Of a DNA stretch of 64,000 nucleotides, positions 7,542 to 27,366 are shown piece after piece (positions within the stretch are counted from its first letter, which is position 1; every line of letters begins with the position of its first letter). Both the position numbers and the translations under genes were made by a program. The notes under the pieces are model-generated. The model had not been told where the DNA came from. It saw nothing but the letters and a program-made list of their open reading frames with translations, and ran no database searches. Source of the stretch: Streptomyces sp. NBC_00425 (GTDB taxonomy: Bacteria > Actinomycetota > Actinomycetes > Streptomycetales > Streptomycetaceae); NCBI RefSeq assembly GCF_036030735.1, contig NZ_CP107928.1:3596001-3660000 (forward strand). The letters run 5' to 3'.

Positions 7542-7843
7542 CGTAAAGTTCGAAGCGGAGCCGCAAGATCCACCGGTGTTCGCCCAGTCGGACACGTGTG
7601 ATCAGGCAGAGCGCCGCCGCAGGTCGGCGAAGGGTCCGCACGCCCGTCGTGCGTGACGGACATCAACACACCCTTTTGACGCGCAACCGCGCTTGTTTCC
7701 CGCCATTTCCACCCCCGAAACTCACCTTCCGATGTGACTTACGCGACGATGGACGGGCCCGGCCTGACTCTCCCCCTCCGGGGGGCGTAGCCTTTATTCC
7801 CGCTGTCCATCACCTTGTGAAGCGGAAGAGGGCGGTTGCCGCC
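7542..7843. other. Intergenic leader region upstream of odhA
   Basis: 302 bp between the kinase stop and the odhA GTG. It presumably carries the odhA promoter and leader. I see no confident -35/-10 pair, terminator or conserved RNA element. An upstream in-frame GTG at 7817 is a possible alternative odhA start. Confidence 0.4.
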
Positions 7844-10800: not shown

Positions 10801-11653
10801 CTCCTTGCTGTCCGAGTACGCGGTCATGGGCTTCGAGTACGGCTACTCGCTGGCCCGCCCCGACGCGCTCGTGATGTGGGAGGCGCAGTTCGGCGACTTC
10901 GTCAACGGCGCTCAGACGGTCGTCGACGAGTACATCTCGGCCGCCGAGCAGAAGTGGGGCCAGACGTCCGGCGTCACCCTGCTCCTGCCGCACGGCTACG
11001 AGGGCCAGGGCCCGGACCACTCCTCGGCCCGTGTCGAGCGCTTCCTCCAGCTCTGCGCCCAGAACAACATGACGGTCGCGATGCCCACGCTCCCGTCGAA
11101 CTACTTCCACCTCCTGCGGTGGCAGGTGCACAACCCGCACCACAAGCCGCTGGTCGTCTTCACCCCGAAGTCGATGCTGCGCCTGAAGGCCGCCGCGTCG
11201 AAGGCGGAGGAGTTCACCACGGGCCAGTTCCGCCCGGTCATCGGCGACACGTCGGTCCAGGCCGACGCGGTGAAGAAGGTCGTCTTCTGCGCCGGCAAGG
11301 TGTACTACGACCTCGAGGCCGAGCGGCAGAAGCGCGGCATCACGGACACGGCGATCATCCGCCTCGAGCGGCTGTACCCGCTGCCGGGCGCCGAGGTCCA
11401 GGCCGAGGTGAACAAGTACCCGAACGCCGAGAAGTACCTGTGGGTGCAGGAGGAGCCGGCCAACCAGGGCGCCTGGCCGTTCATCGCCCTGAACCTGATC
11501 GACCACCTGGACCTGGCGGTCGGAGCCGACATCCCGCACGGCGAGCGTCTGCGCCGCATCTCCCGGCCGCACGGCTCGTCCCCGGCCGTCGGCTCGGCGA
11601 AGCGGCACCAGGCCGAGCAGGAGCAGCTGGTCCGCGAGGTCTTCGAGGCGTGA
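7844..11653 (+). CDS. odhA: Multifunctional 2-oxoglutarate dehydrogenase E1/E2-like protein (OdhA/Kgd type)
   Basis: Decarboxylates 2-oxoglutarate in the TCA cycle. This 1269-residue actinobacterial fusion lacks a lipoyl domain. It has an N-terminal ODH tail ([20 protein letters not shown]), an Ala/Pro-rich linker at about 62-147, an E2 acyltransferase-type domain at about 150-375, and a thiamine-dependent E1 from about 390 to the end ([14 protein letters not shown] and [16 protein letters not shown] are E1 hallmarks). The E2 active-site region reads DHRVIQGA, with His retained but Gln where canonical E2 enzymes have Asp; mycobacterial Kgd carries a similar change. The GTG at 7844 follows a GGAAGAGGGCGG ribosome binding region. 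Lipoylated E2 must come from elsewhere. In corynebacteria and mycobacteria a GarA/OdhI FHA protein inhibits this enzyme. Confidence 0.96.
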
Positions 11654-11847: not shown

Positions 11848-14800
11848 TCAGATGACCTGGGGTTCGAAGTCCCAGTAGGGCCGGTTGCGGGAGCGGGCCG
11901 AGACGGTGTGCGGATGCTTGCTGCCCAGCGTCGCGTCGAGGTCCGACAGCGCCTCCTGCTCGACCTTCTCCGCCTGCCGCCGGTCCCGCAGTCCGCGCAG
12001 GTCCGCCGCGTGGGCGATGCGCGCCGACAGGGTCAGCGGGTGGGTGCGGCCGAGCGTCTCGACGGCCCGGCCCACCGTGTCGTGGCTGAGCTCGGCGGCG
12101 CTCTCGGTGTCGCCGACGATGTTGCGCAGGGCGGAGGCGTTCAGGGCGCAGCCCAGCGTCCAGGGGTGATGCTCCCCCACCGCGTCGGTCATCGCCGCGA
12201 GCGCCTGCTCGAGGAGGACGTGGCCAGCCTCCCGCTCGCCGACGTTGCGCAGGATCAGCGCCTGGTTGGCGCGGGCCCCGGCGACGAACGGGTGCTCGTC
12301 TCCCAGCATCACCTCGTACCGTGCGACGACGGCCTCGCTGAGCTCGCGGGCCCGGTCGATGTCGCCGTGCTCGCGGGCGTAGCAGCTCTGGGCGGTCGCG
12401 AAGATCAGGGTCAGCGGATGGGTCTCGCCGAGCACGCGCTCGCCGCGCTCCAGCACGCTGGAGAGCAGCTCCCCGGGCTCCTCGCGTTCGGCGCCGCGGT
12501 CGCGGCCGCGGTCCCGTTCGCCCAGGCGGTAGCGGCACAGGGCGAGGTTGTGCTCGGCCTTGAGGGTCTGGGGGTTGTCGCGGCCCATCACGAGCCGGAT
12601 CTCGCGCACGTTCTTCGCCTGGATGGACTCGGCCTCCGCGTATCGCCCGAGCAGCCGCAGGTCGATGGCGTAGGAGATCTCGGAGCCGAGGGTCCACGGA
12701 TGGCGGGCCCGCAGGAGCAGGCGGCGCGATTCCATGGTCCGCCGGTCGTGCTCCAGGGCCTCCGGGTAGCGGCCGAGCAGCCGGAGGGAGACGGCGAGGT
12801 TGTTGAGCGAGTTGAGGCTGCGCGAGTCCTGGTCGCCCAGCAGGTCGCGGTAGGCCACCAGGACCCACTGGGAGAGTTCCAGCGCCTCGTCGTAGCGGCC
12901 GAGGCCGCGCAGGTCGGCGGCGAGGCCGGCGGCGGCCCGCAGATGCTCCAGGTCCTGTGGGCCGCGCTCCGCCTTCAGGTGTTCGGAGGCGGCCCGGCTG
13001 AGGGCCTCGGTGGCGGCGTAGTCGCCGACGGCCCGCAGCAGGTTGGTGTAGTGGTAGGTCAGTTCCCAGATCCGGGGGTGGGTCGGGCCGAGCAGTTCGC
13101 GCCAGGCCTTCATGGCGCGCTCGCCGAGCTTGATGCCGGCGACGTACTCGCCGGAGAAGTACATGTAGCGCAGGCAGTTGAAGACCAGTCGCTGGACGGT
13201 CGGTTCCTGGGTCTGCAGCACGTCGGCGTACTTCAGGTGCGGCACGATCTCGGCGTATCCGGGCCACAGGTCGGGGTCGGTGGGCCGGCGCGGGTCGGCC
13301 GCGGCGAGGGCCAGCCGGACGACGTCGATGAACTCCTTGCGGTCCGCGTCCGGCATGTCCTTGTGCACGATCTGGTGGACCATGCGGTGCAGGTACAGCG
13401 ACTCCCCTGAACCGGCTCCCTCGTCGCCGACGGCCTCGTGGGACTCCAGACGGACGACGGAGTACTGGCGGAGCTGGTTGATGGCCTTGTTCCACAGCAG
13501 CGGGTCGTTGAGCAGTCCGGCGAGCTGTTCGGGCAGTTCGTCGCTCGACATCTCGCGCAGCAGCCGGACGGGGATGAAGCCGGGGGCGAAGAAGGTGCAC
13601 AGCCGCAGCAGGTCCACGGACTCGGGGACGGTCTCGCGGAGTTTGTTCAGCAGTATCGACCAGGCGGTCTGGAAGGCGAGCGGGAAGTCCGCCGACACCT
13701 TCACCACGTCGCTGTCGATGCCGCCGTCCAGCAGGGCGATGTACTGGCGCACCGACAGGTCGGAGTCGTTCAGCCAGCCCGCCGTCTGGTCCAGGAGGAG
13801 CGGCAGGTCCTCCAGCGCGTCCGCGAGCTGGTCGGCCTCCCCCTCGGACAGCCGGGGCGCGCGACGCCTGATGAACGCCACCGACTCGTCGCGGGCGTAG
13901 ACGGGCACCTCCAGCAACTTGCTGTTGTGCTCGGTCCATTCGGGGTTGCGGGAGGTGATGATGACATGGCCGGGGCCGGTGGGCACCAGGTCCCAGATCT
14001 GGTCGGGCTCGTCGGCTCCGTCGAGGATCAGCAGCCATCGTCCGTACGGGTCGCCGCGGCGCAGCGAGTCACGGACGGCGCGCAGTCGTTCGCCGTACTC
14101 CTGTCCGGTCTGCAGGCCCAGTTTCGGGGCGAGTTCGGCGAGCAGCCTGCGGTAGGTGACGCGTTTCTCGGCGTTGACCCACCACACGACGTCGTACTCG
14201 GAGCCGAACCGGTAGACGTACTCGGCGGCCGTCTGGGTCTTGCCCACTCCGGACATGCCGTGCAGCGTGACGACGCCGGCGCCGGGCTCCGCGCCCTGCA
14301 GCAGGTGGTAGGCGTCGTTGAGCAGCGTCTCGCGGCCGGTGAAGCGGGTGTTGCGGCGCGGTACCCCGCCCCAGACCTCGGGCATGGCGGCCGGGAAGCG
14401 GGGGCCGCGGCGGGCGCCGTCGGGGACGTCGGGCTGCGGCTCGAAGGGCAGGTCGAGCCGGTCGAACAGGCGGCGCTCGGCCTCCTCGGCGCCCATGTTG
14501 GTGAGGTCGACGGGGGCGAGGACGGCGGTCGCCGCCGGTACGGAGGCCGTCGTCACCGAGACGGCGGCGAACCGGGACGGGTCGGGGGCGACGACCTCGC
14601 GCAGTGCCGCGTTCCACTCCTCCTGCGTACGGGGACCGAGCTGGAAGTACCACTCGCTGACGACGATGAGGACGCGGCCTTCGGCGAGTTCCAGGTCGCG
14701 CAGCAGATCGACCAGGGGCACCTCGGCCGGGGAGTCCCAGCGCAGGTACACCACGCGCAGGCCGCGGCGTTCGAGCCGGTCTCCGATCCATGCCGCCCAG

Positions 14801-14889
14801 GCCCGGTTGAATCCCGCGAAATGGATCGTGACCGCCTGCCTCGCGGCCCCTCTCCCGGTTGCCCCGACCGGCGTACGAGCTCCAGACAT
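11848..14889 (-). CDS. fxsT: TIR-like / NB-ARC / tetratricopeptide protein (FxsT-like)
   Basis: 1013 residues, last gene of the conflict/RiPP operon. Residues 20-150 form a TIR-like alpha/beta domain (VTIHFAGFNRAWAAWIGDRL, RVLIVVSEWYFQLG). A STAND ATPase follows: P-loop GMSGVGKT at 211-218, Walker B WLLILDGAD ending near 293, and an ITSRNPEW sensor. Residues 560-1000 are tetratricopeptide repeats of the NPHAT type (ARHPWTLG, DNPQTLKAEHNLA, EHPFVAGARANQA, THPLTLSARIAHA). Such proteins are sensors or scaffolds that oligomerise on ligand binding. The name follows the FxSxx-COOH system TPR protein; its job there is not established. A 133-bp gap separates it from the HExxH gene, so it may have its own promoter. 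Whether the TIR-like part keeps NADase residues is unclear. Confidence 0.88.
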   Translation of the reverse strand: MSGARTPVGATGRGAARQAVTIHFAGFNRAWAAWIGDRLERRGLRVVYLRWDSPAEVPLVDLLRDLELAEGRVLIVVSEWYFQLGPRTQEEWNAALREVVAPDPSRFAAVSVTTASVPAATAVLAPVDLTNMGAEEAERRLFDRLDLPFEPQPDVPDGARRGPRFPAAMPEVWGGVPRRNTRFTGRETLLNDAYHLLQGAEPGAGVVTLHGMSGVGKTQTAAEYVYRFGSEYDVVWWVNAEKRVTYRRLLAELAPKLGLQTGQEYGERLRAVRDSLRRGDPYGRWLLILDGADEPDQIWDLVPTGPGHVIITSRNPEWTEHNSKLLEVPVYARDESVAFIRRRAPRLSEGEADQLADALEDLPLLLDQTAGWLNDSDLSVRQYIALLDGGIDSDVVKVSADFPLAFQTAWSILLNKLRETVPESVDLLRLCTFFAPGFIPVRLLREMSSDELPEQLAGLLNDPLLWNKAINQLRQYSVVRLESHEAVGDEGAGSGESLYLHRMVHQIVHKDMPDADRKEFIDVVRLALAAADPRRPTDPDLWPGYAEIVPHLKYADVLQTQEPTVQRLVFNCLRYMYFSGEYVAGIKLGERAMKAWRELLGPTHPRIWELTYHYTNLLRAVGDYAATEALSRAASEHLKAERGPQDLEHLRAAAGLAADLRGLGRYDEALELSQWVLVAYRDLLGDQDSRSLNSLNNLAVSLRLLGRYPEALEHDRRTMESRRLLLRARHPWTLGSEISYAIDLRLLGRYAEAESIQAKNVREIRLVMGRDNPQTLKAEHNLALCRYRLGERDRGRDRGAEREEPGELLSSVLERGERVLGETHPLTLIFATAQSCYAREHGDIDRARELSEAVVARYEVMLGDEHPFVAGARANQALILRNVGEREAGHVLLEQALAAMTDAVGEHHPWTLGCALNASALRNIVGDTESAAELSHDTVGRAVETLGRTHPLTLSARIAHAADLRGLRDRRQAEKVEQEALSDLDATLGSKHPHTVSARSRNRPYWDFEPQVI

Positions 14890-15022
14890 GCAGCGGCCTC
14901 CAGCACGTAGTACCTCGAAAATCCTAGGACCTCGGCGCGGCGCGCGTAAGTCCGCCGACCTCTTCCGCGCGCGCCTCGGCCCGACGATCTTCGCTCACCG
15001 GACGGCCCCTCGCAGGCCATCC

Positions 15023-16522
15023 TCATTCTTTCGGGCGTGGCAGCGCGGGAGTATGACGCTGTGTCCACAAAGCGCGCGCGGCCTTCACGTAGGCCTCGGC
15101 CCGGGCGGTGTGGCTGCGGGGCGCCGGGTGTTCGGCCATGCGTTCGTAGGCGGCGGCCATCGCGTCGACGAACCGGCGTCCGCGGACGGTGAGGTCGGGC
15201 GAGCCGACGAGCGCCGGCAGCGCCGCCTTCACCTGGGCGCGGTAGCGGGCGTGCCGGGACCAGGCGTACTCGCCGTCGGGCGGCGAGCCGACGAGCGCCC
15301 GGTGCTGGTAGTAGTCGGCGAGGGCCAGATGGGAGTACACCCCCTGCAGCAGGGCGTCGTACGGCCGGGGTCCCGTCTTCCACGGGGCGAAGTAGCGCGC
15401 TTCGGAGTCGGCGTGATGGAGCGTCACCAGGTCTCCCAGGGCGGCGAGTTTGGCGTGGTGGAGTTCGTGGACGAGCGTGGCGGCGAGGGCGACGGCGTCC
15501 TGCGGGGGGCTGGCGAGCAGGGCGCCGAACGCCTCGTGCCGGGTCGCGCTGCAGCTGTCGCGGCCGTCGGCGCCCGGCGGGCTCTCCAGCGGGACCAGAC
15601 AGCGCAGCAGCGCCACCGCCTCGGCCACCCGGTGTGCGCCGCCGGAGCGCAGCGCGGCCTCGGTGCCCGACCAGGCCTGCAGCCAGCGTTTGTGGTCCGT
15701 GTCGTCGAGCACGGCCGGTCCGCCCAGGGTGCGGTGGCCGGGACCGGGCGCGGTGCGGTACGGGTCGACGTCGTCCAGCGGCAGGGGGGCGGTGCCGGGC
15801 AGCAGGCCGGGCAGGGTGCGCACGGGCGTCCAGGCGAGGGCGGCGGACCAGGCGCCGATCCCGCTCTCCAGGTGGACGACGACGTCCGGCGCGTCGGGTC
15901 CGCGAAGCGTCAGCCGCCCGTCGCGGTGGGCGACGTCGACGGGGGCGTCCGCGCGGGTGGCCGTGTGCAGCGCGCCGAGGGACGGCAGGGCGAGCACCCC
16001 GGCGCGGGCGGTGAGCCGCACGGTGAAGGGGATGCCGGCGCGCGCGGCGGCCACTGCGGCGAGGGCGCTGAAGTGGGCCAGGTCCTGGCGGAGGCGACGG
16101 TCGCGGTGTTCGCCCCCGGGGCCGCCGCGCTCGTCGAGTCCGCGCAGACAGCTCAGCGCCCAGGGGCCGGTCAACGGGTGGAAGAGACGGGCACGGGCGG
16201 GCGAGTGCGCGGCGCCGGACGCGCGGGGGTGACCCGCGGGCGGGCGGGGACCGTCGGCCGGCACACCGCAGGGGCCGGGGTGTTCCGCGGGCGGGCGGGG
16301 ACGGTCGGCCGCGGTGAGCAGGGACCAGTCGTCGCGCAGCCGGGCCTTGCGTGCCGTGGAGCAGACCGCCGGGTGCGCCGCTTCGGCCGCGTCGAGGACG
16401 GCGCGCAGGAGGAGCAGACGCCGGGTGTCCTGGTCACGCACCAGGAGGGCCAGGGTGTCGGGGCTCCCTTGGGTGCGGCCGAGTTCCAGGAGACTGCGTT
16501 CCGGGACCGCGGGCCGGATCAC
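15023..16522 (-). CDS. HExxH-motif protein, probable 2-oxoglutarate-dependent peptide beta-hydroxylase
   Basis: 499 residues from GTG at 16522, which overlaps the fxsB stop (GTGA), so translation is coupled. HELHHAKL places His352, Glu353 and His356 in an HExxH metal site. The family was first taken for zinc proteases and is now described as alpha-ketoglutarate HExxH peptide beta-hydroxylases in radical SAM RiPP pathways (remembered knowledge). In many genomes this domain is fused to FxsB (FxsBH); here the two are separate overlapping genes. The middle third is Ala/Pro/Arg-rich and less ordered. Predicted substrate: the FxsA C-terminus after FxsB has acted. Protease function remains a less likely alternative. 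Confidence 0.85.
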   Translation of the reverse strand: MIRPAVPERSLLELGRTQGSPDTLALLVRDQDTRRLLLLRAVLDAAEAAHPAVCSTARKARLRDDWSLLTAADRPRPPAEHPGPCGVPADGPRPPAGHPRASGAAHSPARARLFHPLTGPWALSCLRGLDERGGPGGEHRDRRLRQDLAHFSALAAVAAARAGIPFTVRLTARAGVLALPSLGALHTATRADAPVDVAHRDGRLTLRGPDAPDVVVHLESGIGAWSAALAWTPVRTLPGLLPGTAPLPLDDVDPYRTAPGPGHRTLGGPAVLDDTDHKRWLQAWSGTEAALRSGGAHRVAEAVALLRCLVPLESPPGADGRDSCSATRHEAFGALLASPPQDAVALAATLVHELHHAKLAALGDLVTLHHADSEARYFAPWKTGPRPYDALLQGVYSHLALADYYQHRALVGSPPDGEYAWSRHARYRAQVKAALPALVGSPDLTVRGRRFVDAMAAAYERMAEHPAPRSHTARAEAYVKAARALWTQRHTPALPRPKE

Positions 16523-17715
16523 GGAGCGTCCTCCTCGCGGGCGGCGGACACGGCGTGCCGGGCGGCTACGGCAGGGGCGTCGGTGGCCGCAGGGGTGGCG
16601 ACGGCTGTCTGCGCGGCGAGCCGGGCGGCGATGTGGCGGATCAGGCGCTGGAGGTCGGCGCAGTACACCGACGGGTTGCGGAAGCCGTGTCCGGCCCGGT
16701 AGCGGTGGGCGTAGTGACCGCCCCCGCAGACCGCGAGCAGGGGGCAGGCGCGGCACTGCCGCGCGAGGGACGCCGTGCCCGCCTGCCGGGCCGCGACGGC
16801 CGGGTGCCGCGACGCGTCGTCGAAGGAGTTGCGGAAGACGTCCAGGCCGGTGTGCGCGGCGCCGTCGTACGCGGACTTGAGGGAGTCCGTCTGCTCGATC
16901 GACCCGTCGGTCTCGACCACGACCGCGTCGAAGGGCGCGAGGCCCAGGGACTCGGTGGCGGCGGGCATGCCCAGCAGGAGGGCGAGGCACTCCTCGAAGA
17001 GACGCACGCGGGTCTCCCGGCGGCCGGCGTCCCACCAGCGGTCGAAGACGGCGCACAGCCACTCCCCGTGCCGCACGCCGGCCCAGTGCGGCGGCGGGGC
17101 GGACCAGTTGCCGTGCGGCAGCAGGAAGTTGACAGCGGGGGGACGCAGGCCGAGGAGGGACTCGTACGTCTCCACGGGGTCCAGCGTGGCGTCGACGACG
17201 GTGAGGATGCCTGCGTACGCCGACGGCGCGTGCTCGGCGGCCAGCAGGGCGCCGCGCGCGGCGGCGGGCCAGGAGGGGCGGCCGGCGTGGTCGACGCGGC
17301 GCGCGTTGTGCGCGGCCCGCCCTCCGTCGAGGCTGACGCTGATCCGGATGCCGCCGTCGGCGAGGACGGCCAGCCGTCGTGCGGTGAGCAGGGTGGCGTT
17401 GGTCTGGACGACGGCGTGGACCGTGCAGCCGGCCGGGACGCGGTCCCGGACCAGGCCGGTGAAGCGGGTGAGGGTCTCGGCGCCGGCCAGCAGGGGTTCG
17501 CCGCCGTGCAGGACGAGGGAGAGGTCCGTCAGGGCGTGGGCGCGGGCGTGCTCGGCGATGCGGGCCGCGGTGCGGTCGAGGACTTCGGGGGCCGCCGTCG
17601 CGGGTCGGGCGCGCCAGGTGCGGTCCGGGCCCTCGTAGAGGTAGCAGTAGGTGCAGGCGAGGTTGCAGCGGCCGTGCATCTTCACGATGAACTGCCGGAA
17701 GGCCTGTCCGGACAT
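16519..17715 (-). CDS. fxsB: FxsB family cyclophane-forming radical SAM/SPASM peptide maturase
   Basis: 398 residues. CNLACTYC gives Cys17, Cys21 and Cys24 for the SAM-binding [4Fe-4S] cluster. A C-terminal SPASM-type cysteine set is seen in QCRACPLLAVCGGGHYAHRY and, further on, NPSVYC. Enzymes of this group join an aromatic ring to the beta carbon of the residue two positions later, giving a three-residue cyclophane; for FxsA that is the Phe and the third residue of the C-terminal motif. The gene lies downstream of the fxsA precursor and overlaps the HExxH gene by 4 bp. The ATG at 17715 has a GGGGG ribosome binding region. Confidence 0.93.
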   Translation of the reverse strand: MSGQAFRQFIVKMHGRCNLACTYCYLYEGPDRTWRARPATAAPEVLDRTAARIAEHARAHALTDLSLVLHGGEPLLAGAETLTRFTGLVRDRVPAGCTVHAVVQTNATLLTARRLAVLADGGIRISVSLDGGRAAHNARRVDHAGRPSWPAAARGALLAAEHAPSAYAGILTVVDATLDPVETYESLLGLRPPAVNFLLPHGNWSAPPPHWAGVRHGEWLCAVFDRWWDAGRRETRVRLFEECLALLLGMPAATESLGLAPFDAVVVETDGSIEQTDSLKSAYDGAAHTGLDVFRNSFDDASRHPAVAARQAGTASLARQCRACPLLAVCGGGHYAHRYRAGHGFRNPSVYCADLQRLIRHIAARLAAQTAVATPAATDAPAVAARHAVSAAREEDAP

Positions 17716-17976
17716 CCAGCACCCCCATGCCCTGCGGCGGTCCTGAAGCGGCCCTGCGGCTGCCGTACGGCAGCCCTGCGGCGGCCCTGTGGCCGGCTTC
17801 GGCCCGTGCCGCCGTGTCCCCCGCTCCGCGGCGCGAGCGCCGCACGGGGCGCATGCCCGTATGTACCGCGGACACAAACCCCGCCCGACCGAACTTGTCC
17901 GAGTCGCGCGCATATGAGACCGAATTCGACTTCCGAGCGATCGAATGCGTCCTGTAGAGGGGTAGTGGCGGACCCG
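17716..17976. other. Gap between fxsA and fxsB
   Basis: 261 bp inside the operon, longer than any other gap in it. It contains short CCTGCGGC-type direct repeats able to form GC-rich stems (about 17732-17800). A stem here could lower expression of the maturase genes relative to the precursor, but no clear terminator with a U-tract or promoter is visible. Confidence 0.4.
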
Positions 17977-18192
17977 TCAGAGCACGGCGTCGAACCCCCA
18001 CAGCGTCTCGCTCGACCTCCCCGCCCGCTCCCGCAGGTCCTCCACCACCTCCCGCAGCACCGGATGCCCGATCGTCCGCAACTCCGCGAGGTCCAGCGCC
18101 AGCAGATCCGGCAGCGGCCCGCCCGCGCCGGGCTCACCCGCGCCGATGTCCTGCGCGGCCGCCTCCGCCACGGACTCGCCCCGTACGTCCAT
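17977..18192 (-). CDS. fxsA: FxsA-type cyclophane RiPP precursor with variant FDAVL terminus
   Basis: 71 residues from ATG at 18192, preceded by GGGGAGG. The leader contains LPDLLALDLAELRTIGHPVLREVVEDLRERA, a hydrophobic-helical pattern typical of FxSxx-COOH precursors. The last residues are ETLWGFDAVL. The family motif is F-x-S-x-x at the very C-terminus; here the Ser position is Ala (codon GCC). FxsB would link the Phe ring to the beta carbon of that third residue, which Ala still possesses, so modification remains chemically possible, while Ser-directed chemistry is excluded. It lies 26 bp after the vWA gene and directly before fxsB in transcription order. Confidence 0.88.
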   Translation of the reverse strand: MDVRGESVAEAAAQDIGAGEPGAGGPLPDLLALDLAELRTIGHPVLREVVEDLRERAGRSSETLWGFDAVL

Positions 18193-18218
18193 GCCCGTAC
18201 CTCCCCAACCCGCTCGGC

Positions 18219-21200
18219 TCACGTCACACGCTCCAGCGCGGCCAGCCGCTCCGCCGTTTTGGCGGCCGTCGGCCCGTCGGCGACCAGGCTGCCCTCCGGC
18301 AGCCGCGACCACTCCGTCCGGGCGGCCCGGTAGGCCTCCCGGGCGGCCCGTGGCCGCGAGGCCGCCTCATAGGACATACCCCGCCAGTGGTGCGCCTGCG
18401 CACCCGTCCGGACGGCCTCGTGCCGGCCGCGTTCCGTGGTGGCCGCCCCCTCGGCCTCCCGGGCCGACTCCGCCGCGTCGCGGAAGGCGTCGACCGCCAG
18501 GTCCAGGCGGGCCGGGCGGCGCAGGCTGCGGTAGGCCTCGAACTGGACCTGGCCGAGTTCCAGACGGCACCGGGAGGCCAGCAGCGGGTCCGCCGCGTCG
18601 GCGGCGGCGAGCCCGAAGAGGTGCTCGGCCTCCCGCAGGTCGACGCGGTCCCCGCGGCCCCGGTAGCGCAGCATCAGCGCACGGCCGAGCAGCAGCAGCC
18701 GGTGGGCGACCTGCGCGCTGCCCGCCGGGGTCTCCATCCGGCAGTCCCGCAGCACCCGGATCGCCCGGGAGAGCGTGCCCTGGGCCCGCGCCCCCGACTG
18801 CAGTCCCGCCAGCCGCAGCAGCGCCTCGCCCCACTCGGCGAGGACGTCGGCGTGCGCGGGCGCGTCGCGGGACATGCGCTGGGCGGCCTGCGCGAAGCGG
18901 TCGGCGGCCGTCTCCAGCTCCGCCGGATCGCCCGACTCCCGGTGGCGGGCGACGGCGATCCGGCCCGCCCGCGCCAGCAGCGCCGCCCGCCGGCCCTGCT
19001 CGCGGACCAGGGCGAGGGCCTCGTCGACGCGGGCCTGGGCGTCGTCGAGCGGGCCGCCCGCCCGGAGCAGGGCGTCGACCAGGTCGAGCAGGACGCGCAC
19101 CCGCGCGCGTACCGACTCCGCGGTGTCGGGCTCCTCCCCGGTGTCGAGGGCGGTGCGCAGCGACTGCGCGCCCTGCTCGGCGTAGAGGCGGGCCTGCACG
19201 GGGTCGGCGGTGGCTCCGGAGAGACGCAGCAGGACCCGGCCGTGCTCCAGGGGGAGTTCGGGCGGCCGCTGCCGGCGGTCGGGCCAGACGTCGGCGAAGG
19301 CCTCCAGCATGCCGACCGCGCCCTGGAGCAGCGCACTGTCCCCGCCGAGCCGCCACTGCGCCTCCAGGGCGCGCACCCGCTCCAGGGTGAGTCCGAGGGC
19401 CTGGTGGTGGTCGAGGTCGGGCGCCGCGCAGGCGACGGCGTACTCGCGGTCGGCGCGGCGCAGCAGGTCCAGGGCGCCGGCCGGGTCGCCGCGGCGTCTG
19501 CGGTCGGTCGCCGCGGCGTGCAGCACCCGCGCCAGGACGGCCCGTTCGCGCAGCCGCCTCGGGTGCGCCGCGGCGCGCTCCGCGGCCGCCTCCGCCTCCT
19601 GCAGCAGATCGTCGCCGCCCTGCACCTCCCACAGGCGCAGCGTGCAGTGCGCGTACTCGGCCCACAGCTCGGGGTCCGCCCCGGCGGGCCGCTCGTGCTC
19701 GGTGGCGCCGCGCAGCAGCTGCACCGCGTCGATGACGTCCTGGATCATGCCCTCGCGGTCGAAGCGCTCGATCAGCGTGCGGGCCCGGCGGACCGCCTGG
19801 TGCGTCGGCCGCTCCTCGGGACGGCCCGGGCCGGTGCGGCCGCCGGGCGTCTCGAACTGCTCGGGCAGCGGCATGAACCGTCGCAGCACGCGCGCGGCGA
19901 CCTCGGCGAAGGGCTGCGGCACGGGCGCCTCGTCGCCGTTGCCGCCGTTGTCCCCGTGGTCGGCCCGCTCGGCGCGGTCCGCGGCGCCGGCGGCGGGCGC
20001 GTAGGGGCGGCCCGCGCCGCCGTCGCCGAGCTGGGCGAGGGCCAGCGCCGGGAAGTTGGGACCGCCCTTGCCGAAGCGCTGCTCGATGTATTCCGAGCAG
20101 TGCTTGAGCACCAGCATGGCCTCGTCGCGGCCCAGCCGGGACAGCAGGGCGTCGCGCACGTCCGGATCGATGCGGTACCACTGGGCCCCGTCGTCGGCGT
20201 ACTCCTCCGACTCGCGCGTGAGGAGGCCGCCGACCAGGACCTCCGCCAGCTCGGACGGTCCCGAGTCGGGCAGCATCGTGCGCTGGACGAGCTGCATGAC
20301 CGGCAGGCACAGGGGCGCGGCGGCCAGGTACACGGCGAGCCGTCCGGCGGCCGGGGAGGCGCTGGAGCTGAACCTGCTGACCCGCTCGAGCGGTGTGCGC
20401 CGCCGGTCGGCGCGCCCGGCGGGGGCGGGCGGCTGGTCCGCGCGCACCCAGCCCACGGCGCCCGGCACCGGCCCCGCGCCGGCCCCTGACAGCAGCCTGG
20501 CCCAGGCGCCGAGGGCCACCGGTTCGGGCGGCAGCACGGGCACCGGCAGCGCCCCGCGGCGGGTCTCCGCCGGAACGCCGGACGGCGTGCGCACCCGCAG
20601 TGCGGCCGCCCCGCCCAGCGTCTCGCCCCGGCTCAACTCGCAGAAGACCACGGGCAGTCGGGTCCGGTTCCACAGACGCTGTGGAAGCGGCTGGAGCACG
20701 GCGACCGGGCCCTGCCGGGAGAGGTGGTGCAGCAGCCGGTGCGCCTGCCCGCTGTGCCACAGCGGGCCGGCGCAGTCGCTGACGAAGAGCACGATCCGGC
20801 GGCCGGTGGGGTCGCTGAGCCGGTCCGTGGAGTGCAGCGGCGCCGCGTACACGTCGGGGCTGCGGCTGACGGCGGGAGCGCCGTCCGGACCCTGGTGCAG
20901 ATGGCTGACCCTGATGTCCGAGAATGCCCCCAACTGGCCGAACACCTGCTCCAGTTCGAGGAAGAGCCGGTCCCAGACCCGCATCGACGACGAGGCGTCC
21001 AGGACCAGTTGGAGCCGGGCGTCGCCGCGGACGACGGCACGGTGGACGGGCATGATCAGGCCGCCCGCCTGCGCGCTGCGCTCCGCCGTCGCCGTCTCGT
21101 CGAGCCGCATGCGCAGCGGCGGCGCCGGGCTGCGGTAGCGCTGCAACCTCCGCAGAGCGCGCTGGAGTTCGAGCGGGGCGGGCAGCGCGGGGGCGGCGGG

Positions 21201-21659
21201 CACGCCCACCGGGAGCGCGGCGGCCCGGCCCGCGCCACGGGCGCGCTGCCCTCCGTCCTGGGGCACCGGGTACAGGCTCACGCGGCCGCCGGCGCCCACC
21301 TCCTGCGGGGGCGGTTCCGCACGCTCGGGCCGCTCCGCACGCGCCCCTGCGTGCGGCCCCCCGCCCCGACCGCCGTCGCGCCGGAACGCCGGCCGGTCGC
21401 CGGCCTCGGCACGCGGTTCCTCCGGTTCGGGCACGTCCACCGGCCGGGTCCACCGCGCCAGCCACAACGCGTCGCACAACTGCTCCACGTCGGGATCGAG
21501 CCCCACCCCGCGCAGGCGCGCGACCAGTTCGGCGAGCGGGTCACCCCCGTCCGGGGCCCGGGACGGGGCCCGGGTCCGGGGGGTCGAGGGGTCGTCGTGG
21601 TGGTCCTGGTGACGGTCGTCGGGCGGGACGGGGCCGTGGCGGGCCGCTGCGTCGGGCAT
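18219..21659 (-). CDS. SAV_2336-like vWA-domain / helical repeat protein
   Basis: 1146 residues. The N-terminal 60 residues match the start of SAV_2336-related proteins. Residues 80-160 are a Pro/Ala/Arg-rich linker. A von Willebrand factor A fold follows: LQLVLDASSSMRVWD supplies the metal-binding D-x-S-x-S (Asp221, Ser223, Ser225), and RIVLFVSDCAGPLW is a later core strand. Residues about 560-1140 are Ala/Leu-rich helical hairpins, probably TPR-like. It sits 7 bp after the MoxR gene; vWA and MoxR ATPases normally work as partners, the vWA binding substrate and MoxR remodelling it. Together with the VMAP protein this is the vWA-MoxR-VMAP ternary arrangement described for bacterial conflict systems. 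Confidence 0.82.
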   Translation of the reverse strand: MPDAAARHGPVPPDDRHQDHHDDPSTPRTRAPSRAPDGGDPLAELVARLRGVGLDPDVEQLCDALWLARWTRPVDVPEPEEPRAEAGDRPAFRRDGGRGGGPHAGARAERPERAEPPPQEVGAGGRVSLYPVPQDGGQRARGAGRAAALPVGVPAAPALPAPLELQRALRRLQRYRSPAPPLRMRLDETATAERSAQAGGLIMPVHRAVVRGDARLQLVLDASSSMRVWDRLFLELEQVFGQLGAFSDIRVSHLHQGPDGAPAVSRSPDVYAAPLHSTDRLSDPTGRRIVLFVSDCAGPLWHSGQAHRLLHHLSRQGPVAVLQPLPQRLWNRTRLPVVFCELSRGETLGGAAALRVRTPSGVPAETRRGALPVPVLPPEPVALGAWARLLSGAGAGPVPGAVGWVRADQPPAPAGRADRRRTPLERVSRFSSSASPAAGRLAVYLAAAPLCLPVMQLVQRTMLPDSGPSELAEVLVGGLLTRESEEYADDGAQWYRIDPDVRDALLSRLGRDEAMLVLKHCSEYIEQRFGKGGPNFPALALAQLGDGGAGRPYAPAAGAADRAERADHGDNGGNGDEAPVPQPFAEVAARVLRRFMPLPEQFETPGGRTGPGRPEERPTHQAVRRARTLIERFDREGMIQDVIDAVQLLRGATEHERPAGADPELWAEYAHCTLRLWEVQGGDDLLQEAEAAAERAAAHPRRLRERAVLARVLHAAATDRRRRGDPAGALDLLRRADREYAVACAAPDLDHHQALGLTLERVRALEAQWRLGGDSALLQGAVGMLEAFADVWPDRRQRPPELPLEHGRVLLRLSGATADPVQARLYAEQGAQSLRTALDTGEEPDTAESVRARVRVLLDLVDALLRAGGPLDDAQARVDEALALVREQGRRAALLARAGRIAVARHRESGDPAELETAADRFAQAAQRMSRDAPAHADVLAEWGEALLRLAGLQSGARAQGTLSRAIRVLRDCRMETPAGSAQVAHRLLLLGRALMLRYRGRGDRVDLREAEHLFGLAAADAADPLLASRCRLELGQVQFEAYRSLRRPARLDLAVDAFRDAAESAREAEGAATTERGRHEAVRTGAQAHHWRGMSYEAASRPRAAREAYRAARTEWSRLPEGSLVADGPTAAKTAERLAALERVT

Positions 21660-21666
21660 CAGGCCC

Positions 21667-22689
21667 TCACCTCGGGCGGTCGAGTCGCTGGATGAGCAGG
21701 TCGGCCAGCCGGTCACGACTGGGCGGCGCGGCCGCGTCGGTGAGGTAGATCGCGTTCAGCAGCTGGTCCGCGGCGAGGAGTTCACTGCGCGAGCGCTCCA
21801 GGAACCGCGTGATCAGATCGTCCCCCGCGCGGGCCGCCTCGTCACCGAGATGCGCGCGGACGAAGGTGGCGAGCCGGTTGTGGTCGGGGCGCCCCAGCTC
21901 CAGGTGGATGCACCGGCGCATCAGCGGGGCCGGGAAGTCGCGTTCGCCGTTGCTGGTGAGCACGACGAAGGGGAAGGCGCGGCAGCGCACCCGTCCGTCG
22001 CGCACCCGCACCTTCACGCCGTCGGCGGTCAGCACCTCCGCCTCGCCGTCCGGCAGCCGGTCGGCGATCCGCTCCAGCTCGGGTATCGCGAACTCGCCCT
22101 CCTCCAGGACGTTCAGCAGGTCGTTGGGCAGATCGATGTCGCTCTTGTCCAGCTCGTCGATGAGCAGCACGCGCGGTGTGTCGGAGGGCAGCAGGGCGGT
22201 GCCGAGCGGCCCCAGCCGGATATAGCTGCCGATGCCCTCGACCGCGCCCGGCGAGCCGGCCGCCGACCCGAACCCGCCCTGCGCGGCGATCTGCACGTCC
22301 TGGAGCCGGGCGATGGCGTCGTAGTGGTAGAGCCCGTCCTGCAGCGCGGAACGGCTGACGATGGACCAGCGCAGCACGTTGCCGAGTCCGAGTTCGTACG
22401 CCACCGAGTGGGCGAGGGTGCTCTTGCCCGCGCCGGGGCTGCCCGTGACGAGCAGCGGACGGCGCAGATACAGCGCCGCGTTGATCATCTCCAGCTCCTC
22501 GGCGCCCGGCCGGTGCAGTTCCGCCAGATGCCGGTGCGCGCCGAGCCTGCGGTCCTGGGAGCCGTCGCCCGACCCCGCCGCGTCCCGGCTGGTGAAGTCC
22601 CGCCACGGAGGAGGATCGGGCAGCCGCTCGATCCCGTCGTGCGGTTCGCCGGCGCCTCGGTAGATGAGCCACTCACTGGATTCGGTCAT
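21667..22689 (-). CDS. MoxR family AAA+ ATPase
   Basis: 340 residues. Walker A GSPGAGKS ends at Ser90 and Walker B VLLIDELDKSDID has Asp178-Glu179. TSNGERDFPAPLMRRC is the sensor/arginine-finger region (about 245-260) and LPNDLLNVLEEGEF is the helix insert typical of MoxR proteins. ATP-driven remodelling of a partner via the adjacent vWA protein is the expected role. Its stop is 7 bp before the vWA gene start, and 108 bp separate it from the protease/VMAP gene upstream. Confidence 0.93.
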   Translation of the reverse strand: MTESSEWLIYRGAGEPHDGIERLPDPPPWRDFTSRDAAGSGDGSQDRRLGAHRHLAELHRPGAEELEMINAALYLRRPLLVTGSPGAGKSTLAHSVAYELGLGNVLRWSIVSRSALQDGLYHYDAIARLQDVQIAAQGGFGSAAGSPGAVEGIGSYIRLGPLGTALLPSDTPRVLLIDELDKSDIDLPNDLLNVLEEGEFAIPELERIADRLPDGEAEVLTADGVKVRVRDGRVRCRAFPFVVLTSNGERDFPAPLMRRCIHLELGRPDHNRLATFVRAHLGDEAARAGDDLITRFLERSRSELLAADQLLNAIYLTDAAAPPSRDRLADLLIQRLDRPR

Positions 22690-22797
22690 GATCCGGTCCT
22701 CGTCACTCGTCCACTGCCGCGGCGGTCCGAACGTGCATCACGTTATCCATCCTGGGGGTGCCTGGTAAGGGGCCGGCCGGCCCCGCGGACGGGTGGC

Positions 22798-25122
22798 TCA
22801 AGGGGCCTCCAGCAGGTCACCCGTGCCGGGGAGGGGCTGGTGAGGGTCGTCGTACAACAGGGCCACGCCGTCGGCCCAGAACGACTCCGTGCGGCCCTCT
22901 CGGAGCCGCACCCGGAGATCGTGCACGGCCTCGGGAAGGTGCTGCGCGGTGGGCGGTTCGGCGATCTCGTCGATCGTGCCGCGGTGGAACTCGCCGCAGA
23001 CGGCGTCCGACCGGCCGCGCCGCCGGCGCCACAGGGCCACGCCGTAGCCGCCGAGCACGATCCGGGCGAGCGCCTCCGCGTCGTCCTCGTAACGGAGGTC
23101 GCCGTAGCGGCAGAGCACCGGGACGGTGCCGTGCGACAGGGCACGCAACTGCTCCACGGTCGGCACCGGTTTGCGCAACCCCTCGTCGCAGTCGAGGACT
23201 TCGGCCCGCGCCCGGTGCGCGTGCAGCCAGCGCCAACGGGCCCGGCGCTCCGCGTCCACGTCCTCGTCGCCGTACTCGTCGTCGCCGTATCCGTCGTCGC
23301 CGTATCCGTCGTTCTCGCCGTGCACGTCGTTCTCGCCGGCGTCTCCTGGGCCTTCCGGGCCTTCCGGGGCCTGCGGGGCGCGCCAGTGGCCCCCGGCGTC
23401 GCCGTCGGCCGCGTCGTGAGCCCCTGACTCCTCGTCGGACAGCCGGTCACGGTCGGCGCAGCGCACGACGACGGGCCGCAGGGCGCCCAACGGCACTTCT
23501 TCCGGCGGGAGTTGCCAGGCGTCCACCTCGAGGCCGAGCAGCGCCTGGGGCAGCGCCACCTGGAGCAGCGCCGGCCTGCCGGGCTCGTCGCAGTGACGGA
23601 AGGCCTCCGCGAGGGGTCCGGCGAGGCGGCCGGGCAGCTCGGCCAGCGGCGTGCGCTCGGCCTCGCGCAGCCGTACGGCCTCTCCGCCGGGGACGGTCAC
23701 GCAGACCGACCAGTCGCAGCGGTCCGGCTCCCAGCCCCGCCGCACCAGCTCGAGCAGGACGGAGGGCCGCGCCACGCTGCCCGGGGCGCGGTCACGGGCA
23801 CGCGCGCGTGCGGCCCGCCCGCGCCGCCGGTCGCGCCCGCGCCCGCCGGGACCGTCGCTCGCGTGCCCGCCTGCGGAGACCGTGTCGGGGGCGTCGCGCT
23901 CCGCGCCGTCCCGTCGGCGCAGCCGCGCGATCCGCTGCTCGGCGAGGCCGGACCGGTAGCGAACGCTCAGCCGCTGCGCGGCCTGCCAGACCCAGACCCA
24001 CAGGGCCTTCTCGGCGTCCGGGGTGCTGGGCACCACGAACGGGCGCGGCGCGGACATCGCCCGCATCGCGTAGTCGAGCACCAGCTCCAGCGCCCCGTCG
24101 TCGCTCGCGCTCTCGTACAGCGCGCCGAGACCGTCGCGCCAGCCGCGCGGCGCGGGCAGCGGAACGGGACCCTGGAGGTCGGGCAGGGAGTCGAGGATGT
24201 CCAGCAGACCGCGGGTGCTCTCGGGCGGCGGGAGTTCGGCGAGCCGGCCCAGCAGCTGGATCCGCTCGTCCGGGCTGAGGGTGCGGCCCGGGCGGGCGCC
24301 CAGCCTGCCCTGCACGTCGGTCCAGGTCTGCCGCCGGGAGGCGGGGTGGCGCTGCCGGTCACGGTGGTAACGGTCATGGGCGTGGAAGACCGCCTGGTAG
24401 AGGTCGCTGTGCTCGGCCGGCACCGCCTCCGCAGGCACTCGCAGGGTGCGCAGCTGCTCGATCCCGGTGGAGGTGCCGCCGGGCCGGTGGTCCGAGCGCG
24501 CCTTCAGGACGCCGATCACCTCGCCGCGCACCGGGTCGATCACCGGCCCGCCCGAGACGCCGTAGGGCAGGTCGTTGTCGCCCAGCCGCATCTGCACGTC
24601 CGAGGACCAGCCGCCGATCGTCCCCTGCACCGTGAGCGTGCCGTCCAGGACCTGTAAGCGGCCCTCGTTCTCGGTCCAGCCGGCGTACAGCACCCGGCCT
24701 TCGCCGTAGTACGCCGCCGGACGCTCGGAGACGTACACGCACTCGTGGTCGTCGACCGGCTCGGTCAGCTGTACCAGGGCCAGGTCCGGCGCCGGCCAGT
24801 TGCCGGCGGACGCGCCCCGCTCGGCGCGCTCGGGCAGCGTCGCCACCACCCTGCCGGGCGCGCTCGAGGCACCCCGTCCCGGAGCCGTCTCATACACCAC
24901 GGCAACCTTGCCCCCCTCCCCGCCGCAGGCCACGTGTGCGCAGGTCAGAACCCAGTTGGGAGCGACGAAGAAGCCGCTGCCGAGGAACGTCCCGGGCTCA
25001 TCCAGGGCATACCCGACCACCGGGCGATGAATGCGCACGGTGGCCGCCACGACGAGTCCACGCAGCGCACGGCGGGCCGCATCGAACGCGTTCGATGCGC
25101 CCGGGGCGTGCCCGCCCGTCAT
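22798..25122 (-). CDS. Trypsin-like serine protease with VMAP-C domain
   Basis: 774 residues. The N-terminal trypsin/S1-like domain (about 20-225) has an apparently complete triad: His63 in LTCAHVACGG, Asp113 in APDLALVQL, Ser190 in GVSGGPV. No signal peptide is seen, so the protease is cytosolic. The middle (about 260-400) holds a helical segment reminiscent of effector-associated domains. The C-terminal 300 residues resemble VMAP-C (vWA-MoxR associated protein), ending with SFWADGVALLYDDP. An acidic, Gly/Asp/Tyr-rich insert at about 594-621 is encoded by 15-bp repeats. The gene overlaps the Trypco1 gene by 4 bp (ATGA). Inferred role: a protease effector held inactive until MoxR/vWA signalling releases it. 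Confidence 0.87.
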   Translation of the reverse strand: MTGGHAPGASNAFDAARRALRGLVVAATVRIHRPVVGYALDEPGTFLGSGFFVAPNWVLTCAHVACGGEGGKVAVVYETAPGRGASSAPGRVVATLPERAERGASAGNWPAPDLALVQLTEPVDDHECVYVSERPAAYYGEGRVLYAGWTENEGRLQVLDGTLTVQGTIGGWSSDVQMRLGDNDLPYGVSGGPVIDPVRGEVIGVLKARSDHRPGGTSTGIEQLRTLRVPAEAVPAEHSDLYQAVFHAHDRYHRDRQRHPASRRQTWTDVQGRLGARPGRTLSPDERIQLLGRLAELPPPESTRGLLDILDSLPDLQGPVPLPAPRGWRDGLGALYESASDDGALELVLDYAMRAMSAPRPFVVPSTPDAEKALWVWVWQAAQRLSVRYRSGLAEQRIARLRRRDGAERDAPDTVSAGGHASDGPGGRGRDRRRGRAARARARDRAPGSVARPSVLLELVRRGWEPDRCDWSVCVTVPGGEAVRLREAERTPLAELPGRLAGPLAEAFRHCDEPGRPALLQVALPQALLGLEVDAWQLPPEEVPLGALRPVVVRCADRDRLSDEESGAHDAADGDAGGHWRAPQAPEGPEGPGDAGENDVHGENDGYGDDGYGDDEYGDEDVDAERRARWRWLHAHRARAEVLDCDEGLRKPVPTVEQLRALSHGTVPVLCRYGDLRYEDDAEALARIVLGGYGVALWRRRRGRSDAVCGEFHRGTIDEIAEPPTAQHLPEAVHDLRVRLREGRTESFWADGVALLYDDPHQPLPGTGDLLEAP
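23278..23325. repeat. In-frame 15-bp repeats within the VMAP-C region
   Basis: GTCGTCGCCGTATCC occurs twice in tandem, flanked by degenerate copies from 23261 to 23340, encoding Asp/Gly/Tyr-rich acidic units (GYGDD, GYGDDEYGDED). The length is expected to vary between strains through slippage. Confidence 0.8.
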
Positions 25123-25769
25123 GCTCCGCCCCCGCCGACTGCGTCGTCGGCCCCCCCGTGCATCGGCGCGCCGGGAGACGCGCCCGCGCGCCGCCCCCCG
25201 TCGGCGAGGGACGCGTCCGGCGAGGGGGGTGAGGCCGGTGGCGGGGGTGCGGCGGGGAGCGGAGGCGAGGGGGGTGAGGCCGGTGGCGGAGGTGAGGCGG
25301 GGGGAGCCGGCGCGGTCGGCGCGCCGGTCGAGGAGCCGCCACGCGCACGGAAGGCCGTACCGGCACCGCCGCCGGAGGCCGTGCCGGAGTCCGTGCCGGC
25401 AGGCGGTGCGTCGAGGTCGGGGGGCCCGCTGTTCCAGGTCAGGGTGACCGTGATGGCGGCCTTGGCCTCGCCGTCGGCCAGCAGTCCGACGACCTTCCCG
25501 GCCTTGGCGGTCAGCTCGATGCCGAACTCGACGCTCACCTCGTCCGGCCGCACCGCCCGCAGCGGCTCCGCCAGCGACCGCGCGACCCCGGTGACGAGCG
25601 TGTGCAGGCTCTCCACGCTCGCCTCCACCCGCTCGGCGAACCCGGTGTCGCTGTACGACAGCCGCCCGGAGGGCGCGGACAGCTCTCCGGCGCCCGAGAT
25701 CCGGGCCCAGACGGGCGTCCCGTCCGGCAGCGCGACGCGCGCCACCCGTGTCACGTCCTCACCGCTCAT
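25119..25769 (-). CDS. Trypco1-like (CU044_2847 family) trypsin co-occurring protein
   Basis: 216 residues. Residues 1-112 form a small beta-rich domain (RVARVALPDGTPVWARISG, VSVEFGIELTAKAGKVVG, AAITVTLTWN) that matches the trypsin co-occurring domain 1 pattern. The remainder is a Pro/Ala/Ser/Gly tail of low complexity partly built by a duplicated 45-bp block. The stop overlaps the start of the trypsin/VMAP gene (ATGA), so the two proteins are co-translated; a direct protease partner or inhibitor role is inferred. It is the first gene of the operon, and the promoter should lie in the 232 bp shared with the divergent DUF6104 gene. Confidence 0.8.
   Translation of the reverse strand: MSGEDVTRVARVALPDGTPVWARISGAGELSAPSGRLSYSDTGFAERVEASVESLHTLVTGVARSLAEPLRAVRPDEVSVEFGIELTAKAGKVVGLLADGEAKAAITVTLTWNSGPPDLDAPPAGTDSGTASGGGAGTAFRARGGSSTGAPTAPAPPASPPPPASPPSPPLPAAPPPPASPPSPDASLADGGRRAGASPGAPMHGGADDAVGGGGA
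25219..25289. repeat. 26-bp direct repeat within Trypco1 tail
   Basis: GGCGAGGGGGGTGAGGCCGG... (26 bp) at 25219-25244 is repeated exactly at 25264-25289. The offset of 45 bp keeps the reading frame, adding 15 Pro/Ala/Ser residues per copy to the disordered tail. Confidence 0.88.
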
Positions 25770-27365: not shown

Positions 27366-27366
27366 C

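Follow-up and report, generated by a model that had tools for sequence, protein, structure and literature searches.

We analyzed 64,000 nt of Streptomyces sp. NBC_00425 (GCF_036030735.1, contig NZ_CP107928.1, 3,596,001-3,660,000; this whole stretch is the window) in which eight genes join a Trypco1 gene and a triad of a trypsin-VMAP protease, a MoxR-type ATPase and a von Willebrand factor A (vWA) protein to a peptide pathway (the precursor FxsA, the radical SAM maturase FxsB and a HExxH enzyme) and the TIR-NB-ARC-TPR protein FxsT (Table 1). We found that this locus is one more example of the FxSxx-type VMAP ternary conflict system described in section 24 of Kaur et al., 2020 (PMC7159879). Across related loci, the peptide pathway and FxsT are the constant part, and the protease is a trypsin, a CHAT protein or both. 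As a whole, the locus is best explained as a conflict system in which the modified peptide would be a signal or licensing ligand, an explanation to which we give nearly an even chance. We hold tentatively, with somewhat less than even confidence, that one peptide would be the shared signal for two exchangeable and unrelated protease complexes, both of which bring along a Trypco1 and a TIR-STAND protein of their own, with the fxsB-side genes on their own promoter and the precursor made with the triad. As far as our literature searches reach, the element before fxsB, the branches that lost a maturase and the exchangeable CHAT cassette are new.

All eight window genes translate on the minus strand with a start codon and a single terminal stop, which fits the overall span and reproduces all seven gaps (-4, 108, 7, 26, 261, -4 and 133 bp from Trypco1 to FxsT) of eight same-direction genes given in an earlier note on this DNA. 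The VMAP, MoxR and vWA genes lie 5' to 3' in the order of the VMAP ternary system. According to the section cited above, about 20% of actinobacterial VMAP-ternary systems have a peptide-processing system, and in the FxSxx type, which has a radical SAM-SPASM gene, the TIR-AP-ATPase is a separate downstream gene (Kaur et al., 2020; PMC7159879). In the window we found a radical SAM-SPASM gene, a zincin-like gene and a separate downstream TIR-AP-ATPase gene, as in that subtype. Family models support the note's assignments for all eight genes, except that the FxsA tail is FxAxx and not FxSxx; its statement that nothing published links the two halves does not hold, as this composition is already in that section of Kaur et al., 2020 (PMC7159879).

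To compare this order with that of relatives, we took the best 80 of 304 FxsB relatives found in a search of GTDB genomes (79 are titled Streptomyces; L040 is titled 'Actinobacteria bacterium'), 61 of which have at least 8.5 kb upstream and at least 5.5 kb downstream. The check that the note had proposed, conservation of the eight-gene order across actinobacterial genomes, came out in its favor: all eight genes are in order in 52 of the 61 loci and the seven genes other than Trypco1 in 54, while 7 loci deviate (L047, L058, L060, L065, L074, L075 and L092). Protein distances of triad and fxs proteins correlate across 81 full loci (rho 0.80-0.95, species history included), with the highest value for vWA and FxsT (0.952). 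In a sample of 150 genomes of the family, the vWA N-terminal domain is present in at least 112 genomes, FxsB (E 1e-60) in at least 123 and an FxsT-type protein (E 1e-60) in at least 143.

In 26 of the 113 loci with FxsB, FxsT and enough flank, a second protease set lies directly after FxsT. Its order is Trypco1, a ChlI-like AAA+ protein, a ChlD-like vWA protein, a CHAT protein and, where the locus was read to its end, a second TIR-NB-ARC-TPR protein (L239:11607-19564; also L020, L022, L045, L047, L060 and others). The cassette is on the same strand as FxsT in 26/26 loci; its first match begins 51-130 bp after FxsT in 25 and overlaps it in L184. The trypsin triad is present in 19 of the 26 loci and absent from 4, and 3 are short upstream (including L040 and L051). 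On the FxsT tree (FastTree), one clade (L040, L047, L051, L065 and L074) has no upstream triad gene, with about 4 kb upstream in view in L040 and L051. These five loci keep fxsA, fxsB, the HExxH gene and fxsT and have a CHAT set in place of the triad. Genome-wide, we found no SAV_2336-type vWA protein in L047 or L051, and elsewhere in the genome one in L040, one in L065 and three in L074. The same tree, on which 25 of 109 labelled rows have the CHAT set, requires 17 changes of that set. It is unlikely that an unrelated protease would take the place of a dedicated leader peptidase with the peptide staying alike. Since the protease is exchanged or doubled around a constant peptide pathway, and a residue near the trypsin catalytic serine varies (see below), we favor the peptide as a shared signal, which vWA and/or FxsT would sense, with the proteases and the TIR protein as putative executioners.

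The cassette was described from individual loci. In L047, FxsT is followed by Trypco1 (54.6 bits), an AAA+ protein, an undescribed protein and CHAT (PF12770, 28.3 bits); the AAA+ and undescribed proteins match the TIGR02442 chelatase at 6e-80 and 3e-19, both far below its curated cut-off. Elsewhere, we recognized the cassette from its resemblance to those of L047 and L060. When L239-L242 were read through, we found five genes, the last of which encodes another FxsT-like protein, 1096-1260 aa long; in L239 this protein is TIR-NB-ARC-TPR and is followed by kgd; in L240-L242 the next gene was judged by size. The predicted structure of the ChlD-like protein is weak (predicted template modeling score, pTM, 0.43), and the matches listed for it are MCM-family AAA proteins. 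A His/Cys pair, which we take to be a caspase-type motif, is present in 19/20 CHAT proteins. In the 150-genome sample, at least 5 genomes have the ChlD-like protein (E 1e-20; 8 candidates scored per genome), which lies beside a full fxs locus in 4/5; in the fifth, a 40% match on a short contig adjoins AAA+ and CHAT-like genes. We did not find the ChlD-like protein in the window's genome, and the window is without the cassette. In the literature searched we found no description of the cassette, and the main text of Kaur et al., 2020 (PMC7159879) does not contain the word 'CHAT'. We also considered that the CHAT set compensates for loss of the triad, and dropped it. The set is present in 19/95 loci with the triad as compared to 4/6 without (Fisher p 0.023, short-flank rows omitted); on the FxsT tree, with the triad scored present unless seen absent, the counts are 19/101 and 6/8 with only 4 independent pairs, and we make no statistical claim.

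The earlier note had proposed that the MoxR/vWA pair gates the protease and that cleavage of FxsA could be the signal. In a rival model close to this, the VMAP trypsin, gated by MoxR and vWA, would cut FxsA and free the modified C-terminal peptide for FxsT. The trypsin is the operon's only unambiguous protease, and its catalytic His (in TCAHV), Asp (in PDLAL) and Ser (in GVSGGP) are invariant in 24/24 coupled VMAP proteins of a first sample. An AlphaFold model of the VMAP protein (predicted local distance difference test score, pLDDT, 84; pTM 0.86) matches only chymotrypsin-fold proteins among the 50 matches listed in a structure search, in which the VMAP-C region has no fold match among those listed. 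The Arg before the FxsA core, at first sight a trypsin site, is kept across coupled FxsA proteins, and the residue six before the catalytic Ser (S-6), which we take to be, probably, position 189 of the trypsin S1 pocket, is Asp or Glu in 16/16 full systems among the first 24 coupled loci. In the larger set of 79 loci, however, S-6 is acidic in only 49 (D36 E13 V10 W8 Q6 G2 R2 T1 L1), and V, W, Q and other residues stand beside a near-identical FxsA, which is nearly constant across the aligned coupled loci. Stand-alone FxsA proteins, which have no trypsin, keep the Arg as well. On these two grounds we dropped co-variation of trypsin and FxsA. One clade has the fxs genes without the triad. With S-6 varying, FxsA near-constant and CHAT loci lacking the triad, the note's idea of trypsin cleavage as the signal is weakened, and we consider a leader-peptidase role unlikely.

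To place the triad in a wider set, we read 119 vWA loci (the best 120 rows by score minus the window's own row); only best-scoring rows were taken, so the share of each class does not give its frequency in the population. In 47 loci we found FxsB, HExxH or both, and an FxsT that is either unfused or missing: 30 have FxsB, HExxH and FxsT, 12 FxsB and FxsT, 4 HExxH and FxsT, and 1 FxsB and HExxH with FxsT unseen. In 12/119 loci an FxsT-like module is within the vWA protein, which supports a direct partnership of vWA and FxsT, and 60/119 have none of FxsB, HExxH and FxsT. On a vWA tree of 116 rows including the window (IQ-TREE quick mode, with Shimodaira-Hasegawa-like approximate likelihood ratio test, SH-aLRT, support only; L111, L204 and L219 omitted as short contigs and L218 because its motif was unaligned), the 47 coupled loci, the window and L210 form one 49-row clade (SH-aLRT 100). 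Within it, 32 rows of full systems group together (support 93), as do the 12 rows that have FxsB but lack HExxH, joined by L210 (support 97), and the 4 rows that have HExxH but lack FxsB (support 98). Coupling of the triad to the fxs genes looks to have a single origin and, judged from these sequences, either maturase is dispensable to the arrangement.

Several loci in this set have features of their own. The loci with FxsB and no HExxH gene are L110, L112, L116, L126, L181, L185, L186, L189, L190, L191, L193 and L206; precursors in the four inspected (L110, L112, L116 and L126) have YxED- or FGDS-like cores. Those with HExxH and no FxsB are L096, L097, L115 and L120, and their vWA proteins are without a strict DxSxS metal ion-dependent adhesion site (MIDAS). 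L210 has a 2508-aa vWA-containing open frame with DxSxS intact, inside the coupled clade, and no fxs genes were detected there. L075:5936-9364 and L060:4958-9331 keep vWA and fxs genes, while the upstream VMAP and MoxR genes are gone; in L075 the Trypco1 match and vWA share one open frame, which looks like an in-frame deletion.

The identity of the 1146-aa vWA protein in the window rests on NF041121 and its DASSS MIDAS. A Pfam scan found no domain in it, and no TPR at E 0.001; for the subtype, C-terminal TPRs are described (Kaur et al., 2020; PMC7159879). Strict DxSxS is present in 42/44 vWA proteins with FxsB nearby as compared to 5/72 without (116 rows including the window). We dropped a link between MIDAS and FxsB, since the vWA tree holds only 2 independent pairs and strict DxSxS is thus one inherited state; in the FxsB-selected set eight more coupled loci deviate from it (L017, L031, L038, L041, L046, L048, L053 and L062). 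The MoxR protein of the window has N-terminal motifs WLIYRG and PPWRDF, which match the WxhapG and PsWRxa given in Kaur et al., 2020 (PMC7159879), and the patterns W.[IVLM][YF].G and P.WR are present in 81/81 MoxR proteins.

In the gap between fxsA and fxsB we found a conserved promoter-like element with a consensus near GAAYCGGACA-N16-GTTTG. The gap has a median of 195 bp in 116 loci and is at least 60 bp in 113, with the FxsB start guessed as the nearest ATG or GTG. Exact-pattern counts and a whole-genome search served as controls. GGACA...GTTTG at a spacing of 8-28 is present in the gaps of 31/115 loci (28,439 bases in total), 26 of them with a spacing of exactly 16, as compared to 3 occurrences in 4.3 million bases outside gaps (both strands). 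CGGACA-N16-GTTTG occurs once in the 9.8-Mb genome, at this gap, and a reversed control occurs 0 times. The strict GGACA...GTTTG pattern is absent from 84/115 gaps; a weight matrix scores 98/116 gaps above the shuffled 99th percentile, a count that is circular because these gaps also served to fit the matrix. The element is non-coding: 19 of 68 strong sites precede the FxsB open frame, and the rest are spread over all three phases. A sigma-70 scan did not report the element. We rejected an RNA hairpin at the element (pairing fractions equal shuffled controls at 67 sites) and the same element before the first gene, where the best score is 13.8 bits as compared to up to 46.9 in gaps and where 13/95 upstream stretches exceed the threshold (stretches of up to 700 bases, against a threshold set on shorter shuffled gaps). 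The element is a putative dedicated promoter for fxsB, and the transcription units are likely Trypco1-VMAP-MoxR-vWA-FxsA and FxsB-HExxH-FxsT. Given where the element lies, the likely split in transcription falls after fxsA and not between the triad and the fxs genes. The earlier note's view of the two halves as one unit stands as far as one conserved locus is concerned; a single transcript is doubtful. In L092 and L178, the fxsA-fxsB distance is about 7 kb (7246 bp and 6952 bp), apparently through inserted genes.

The element and the position of the locus also bear on whether the two halves share a mechanism at all. The chromosomal site does not change: FxsT has a convergent kgd as its neighbor in 84/114 loci, and 26 of the 30 others have the CHAT cassette in between. 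Two independent modules at one stable site, regulated separately and without a common mechanism, would fit this site, the separate transcription to which the element points and the clade that kept the fxs genes without the triad. Against them speak the FxsT-like modules fused into vWA proteins, the position of fxsA on the triad side of the element 26 bp from vWA, the CHAT set directly after FxsT wherever it was counted and the ChlD-like protein beside full fxs loci in the 150-genome sample. We consider independent modules quite improbable.

FxsA has a leader and the C-terminal core WGFDAVL (Table 1). Among 81 aligned FxsA tails, 53 are FxNxx and 15 are literally FxSxx, which makes FxSxx a loose name for the family; FxA is found in the window alone, whose C-terminus reads F-D-A-V-L and not F-x-S-x-x. 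L094, the closest relative of the window, also has an FxA tail, so the Ala is not a reading error. FxsB carries the motif CNLACTYCY and matches the ChlB radical SAM domain in the PDB at E 1e-70. The HExxH protein carries HELHH; its sequence matches in the PDB are the radical SAM core-domain protein 22nu at E 1e-26 and, with weak similarity at E 0.003, ChlH (8s5f). By family, the gene belongs with the alpha-ketoglutarate (aKG) peptide hydroxylases and is not clearly a peptidase. Hydroxylation is what the HExxH family is mainly known for today, and the role of the trypsin is thereby a question again.

The HExxH enzyme could instead cut FxsA itself, by hydrolytic or oxidative backbone cleavage, and the peptide would then be a toxin or an amplifying signal. 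Section 24 of Kaur et al., 2020 states that the zincin cleaves the peptide and proposes a toxin or signal (PMC7159879). The aKG-HExxH enzymes PflC and PosC are described as splitting the peptide backbone oxidatively, PflC also as proteolytic, and small residues such as Ala or Gly favor this cleavage (PMC12636437), so the window enzyme may have a cutting role; the window core has Ala at the position of Asn or Ser in relatives, a residue that favors backbone cleavage by another HExxH enzyme. However, the activity named for the family is beta-hydroxylation (TIGR04267; ChlH, PMC12636437), PflC and PosC act on another motif (PMC12636437), and HExxH is missing from 12 coupled loci in which FxsB and FxsT are present. 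We regard cleavage by the HExxH enzyme as unlikely.

The explanation that we prefer, the peptide as signal or licensing ligand, would run as follows, with every biochemical step, the direction of signaling and the outcome inferred. FxsA would be made together with the triad; FxsB would forge a cyclophane in the C-terminal WGFDAVL core and the HExxH enzyme would oxidize the core. The modified peptide would serve as a signal or as a licensing ligand and not as a substrate dedicated to the protease; the vWA protein, the TPRs of FxsT or both would read it. In response, MoxR and vWA would remodel VMAP so that the trypsin acts, and FxsT, whose NB-ARC region matches APAF-1 (E 3e-6), would assemble through NB-ARC and act through TIR, so that the infected or damaged compartment would be arrested or die. 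If, beyond this, one peptide is the shared signal for both protease sets, a single site of the chromosome has retained, duplicated or exchanged an executioner protease under peptide control. The two-set loci and the CHAT-only clade are natural experiments on whether the peptide of an apoptosome-like bacterial system is its substrate or its signal.

Several observations weigh against this explanation. Coupled loci can miss a maturase (12 are without HExxH and 4 without FxsB); the arrangement can therefore do without the exact modification. L075 and L092 keep the fxs genes with neither VMAP/MoxR nor a CHAT set in view. W-x-x-E is a TIR motif; in FxsT, E91-W92 is invariant in 15/15 proteins and W92-NAAL stands in place of W-x-x-E, and a profile search of the PDB matched no TIR structure; this TIR is a candidate NADase. 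In PADLOC-DB 2023 we found no convincing defense-model match, only weak partial ones, the best at 31.3 bits to a viperin model.

The neighbors of the unit were also read. Convergent with it lies a kgd-like gene for a multidomain 2-oxoglutarate dehydrogenase/decarboxylase; that an alpha-ketoglutarate dehydrogenase adjoins an alpha-ketoglutarate enzyme operon may be coincidence. Upstream and divergent lies a PadR-type regulator, a candidate regulator of the unit, with homologues in many relatives, triad-less loci among them. The same genome has a second VMAP/vWA locus (G000:C1:2405254-2408805, L200) with a non-canonical MIDAS, in whose neighborhood no FxsB, HExxH or FxsT was detected.

Table 1. 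Genes, motifs and neighbors of the locus in window coordinates, from the upstream to the downstream side of the unit.
Feature	Coordinates	Strand	Support
PadR-type regulator	27178-28587	+	
Trypco1 (trypsin-co-occurring domain 1) protein, 216 aa	25119..25769	-	PF19493 72.1 bits; NF041216 68.6
Trypsin-VMAP-C protein, 774 aa	22798..25122	-	PF20028 125.6 bits (cut-off 27); Trypsin_2 PF13365 56.2
Catalytic His, in TCAHV	24931-24945		
Catalytic Asp, in PDLAL	24775-24789		
Catalytic Ser, in GVSGGP	24544-24561		
MoxR-type AAA+ ATPase, 340 aa	21667..22689	-	AAA_5/AAA only, 25.8 bits each; Walker A and B
vWA protein (SAV_2336 type), 1146 aa	18219..21659	-	NF041121 508 bits
MIDAS, DASSS	20985-20999		
FxsA precursor of a ribosomally synthesized and post-translationally modified peptide, 71 aa	17977..18192	-	TIGR04268 40 bits (cut-off 28)
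FxsA leader, LPDLLALDLAEL	18079-18114		
FxsA core, WGFDAVL	17980-18000		
Promoter-like element CGGACA-N16-GTTTG, fxsA-fxsB gap	17875..17901	-	Conservation across loci
FxsB radical SAM/SPASM cyclophane maturase	16519..17715	-	TIGR04269 426.5 bits (cut-off 370)
FxsB motif, CNLACTYCY	17641-17667		
aKG-HExxH peptide beta-hydroxylase family protein, GTG start	15023..16522	-	TIGR04267 160.8 bits (cut-off 40)
HExxH motif, HELHH	15455-15469		
FxsT, TIR-NB-ARC (AP-ATPase)-TPR, 1013 aa	11848..14889	-	NF040586 838.7 bits (cut-off 300); TIR_2, NB-ARC, TPR_12
kgd-like gene	7598-11653	+	

Compared with known systems, the locus shares trypsin-VMAP, MoxR, vWA, Trypco1 and TIR with the VMAP ternary loci diversified by diversity-generating retroelements (PMC10907252). 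In those loci sensing is by hypervariable lectin domains, and 'radical SAM' occurs 0 times in the text of that paper that we searched. Like the explanation that we prefer, that paper takes the vWA protein for the sensor and the VMAP protease for the effector. It cites the contrary proposal of Kaur that effectors are released from the vWA protein by the protease, and one of its loci has Trypco2 adjoining a CHAT-TIR protein (PMC10907252). The stand-alone FxsBH/FxsT systems of actinobacteria, forms that Kaur et al., 2020 also mention (PMC7159879), share FxsA, FxsB, the HExxH domain and an FxsT-like protein with the window. In contrast, a triad gene was detected in 0/20 fetched stand-alone stretches, and the precursors recovered from them differ in their leader and end in FNSAL- or FQSSI-like tails. 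The ChlB/ChlH triceptide enzymes likewise combine radical SAM cyclophane formation with aKG-HExxH beta-hydroxylation (PMC12636437; structures 9gm3 and 8s5f); ChlBH is a fused enzyme, whereas the window has two genes.

The closest likeness is to the FxSxx type of Kaur et al., 2020 (PMC7159879), with Trypco1, trypsin-VMAP, MoxR, vWA, an FxSxx precursor, a zincin-like gene, a radical SAM-SPASM gene and a TIR-AP-ATPase. In the literature since 2020 that we searched, VMAP, radical SAM and Streptomyces occur together only in that paper. There, the HExxH gene is called a peptide-cutting metallopeptidase, whereas here its family is one of hydroxylases; the type is named FxSxx, whereas the window core is FxAxx; and section 24 is silent on any element before fxsB and any CHAT set (PMC7159879). 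The basic association was thus already published, and what this analysis gains is testability.

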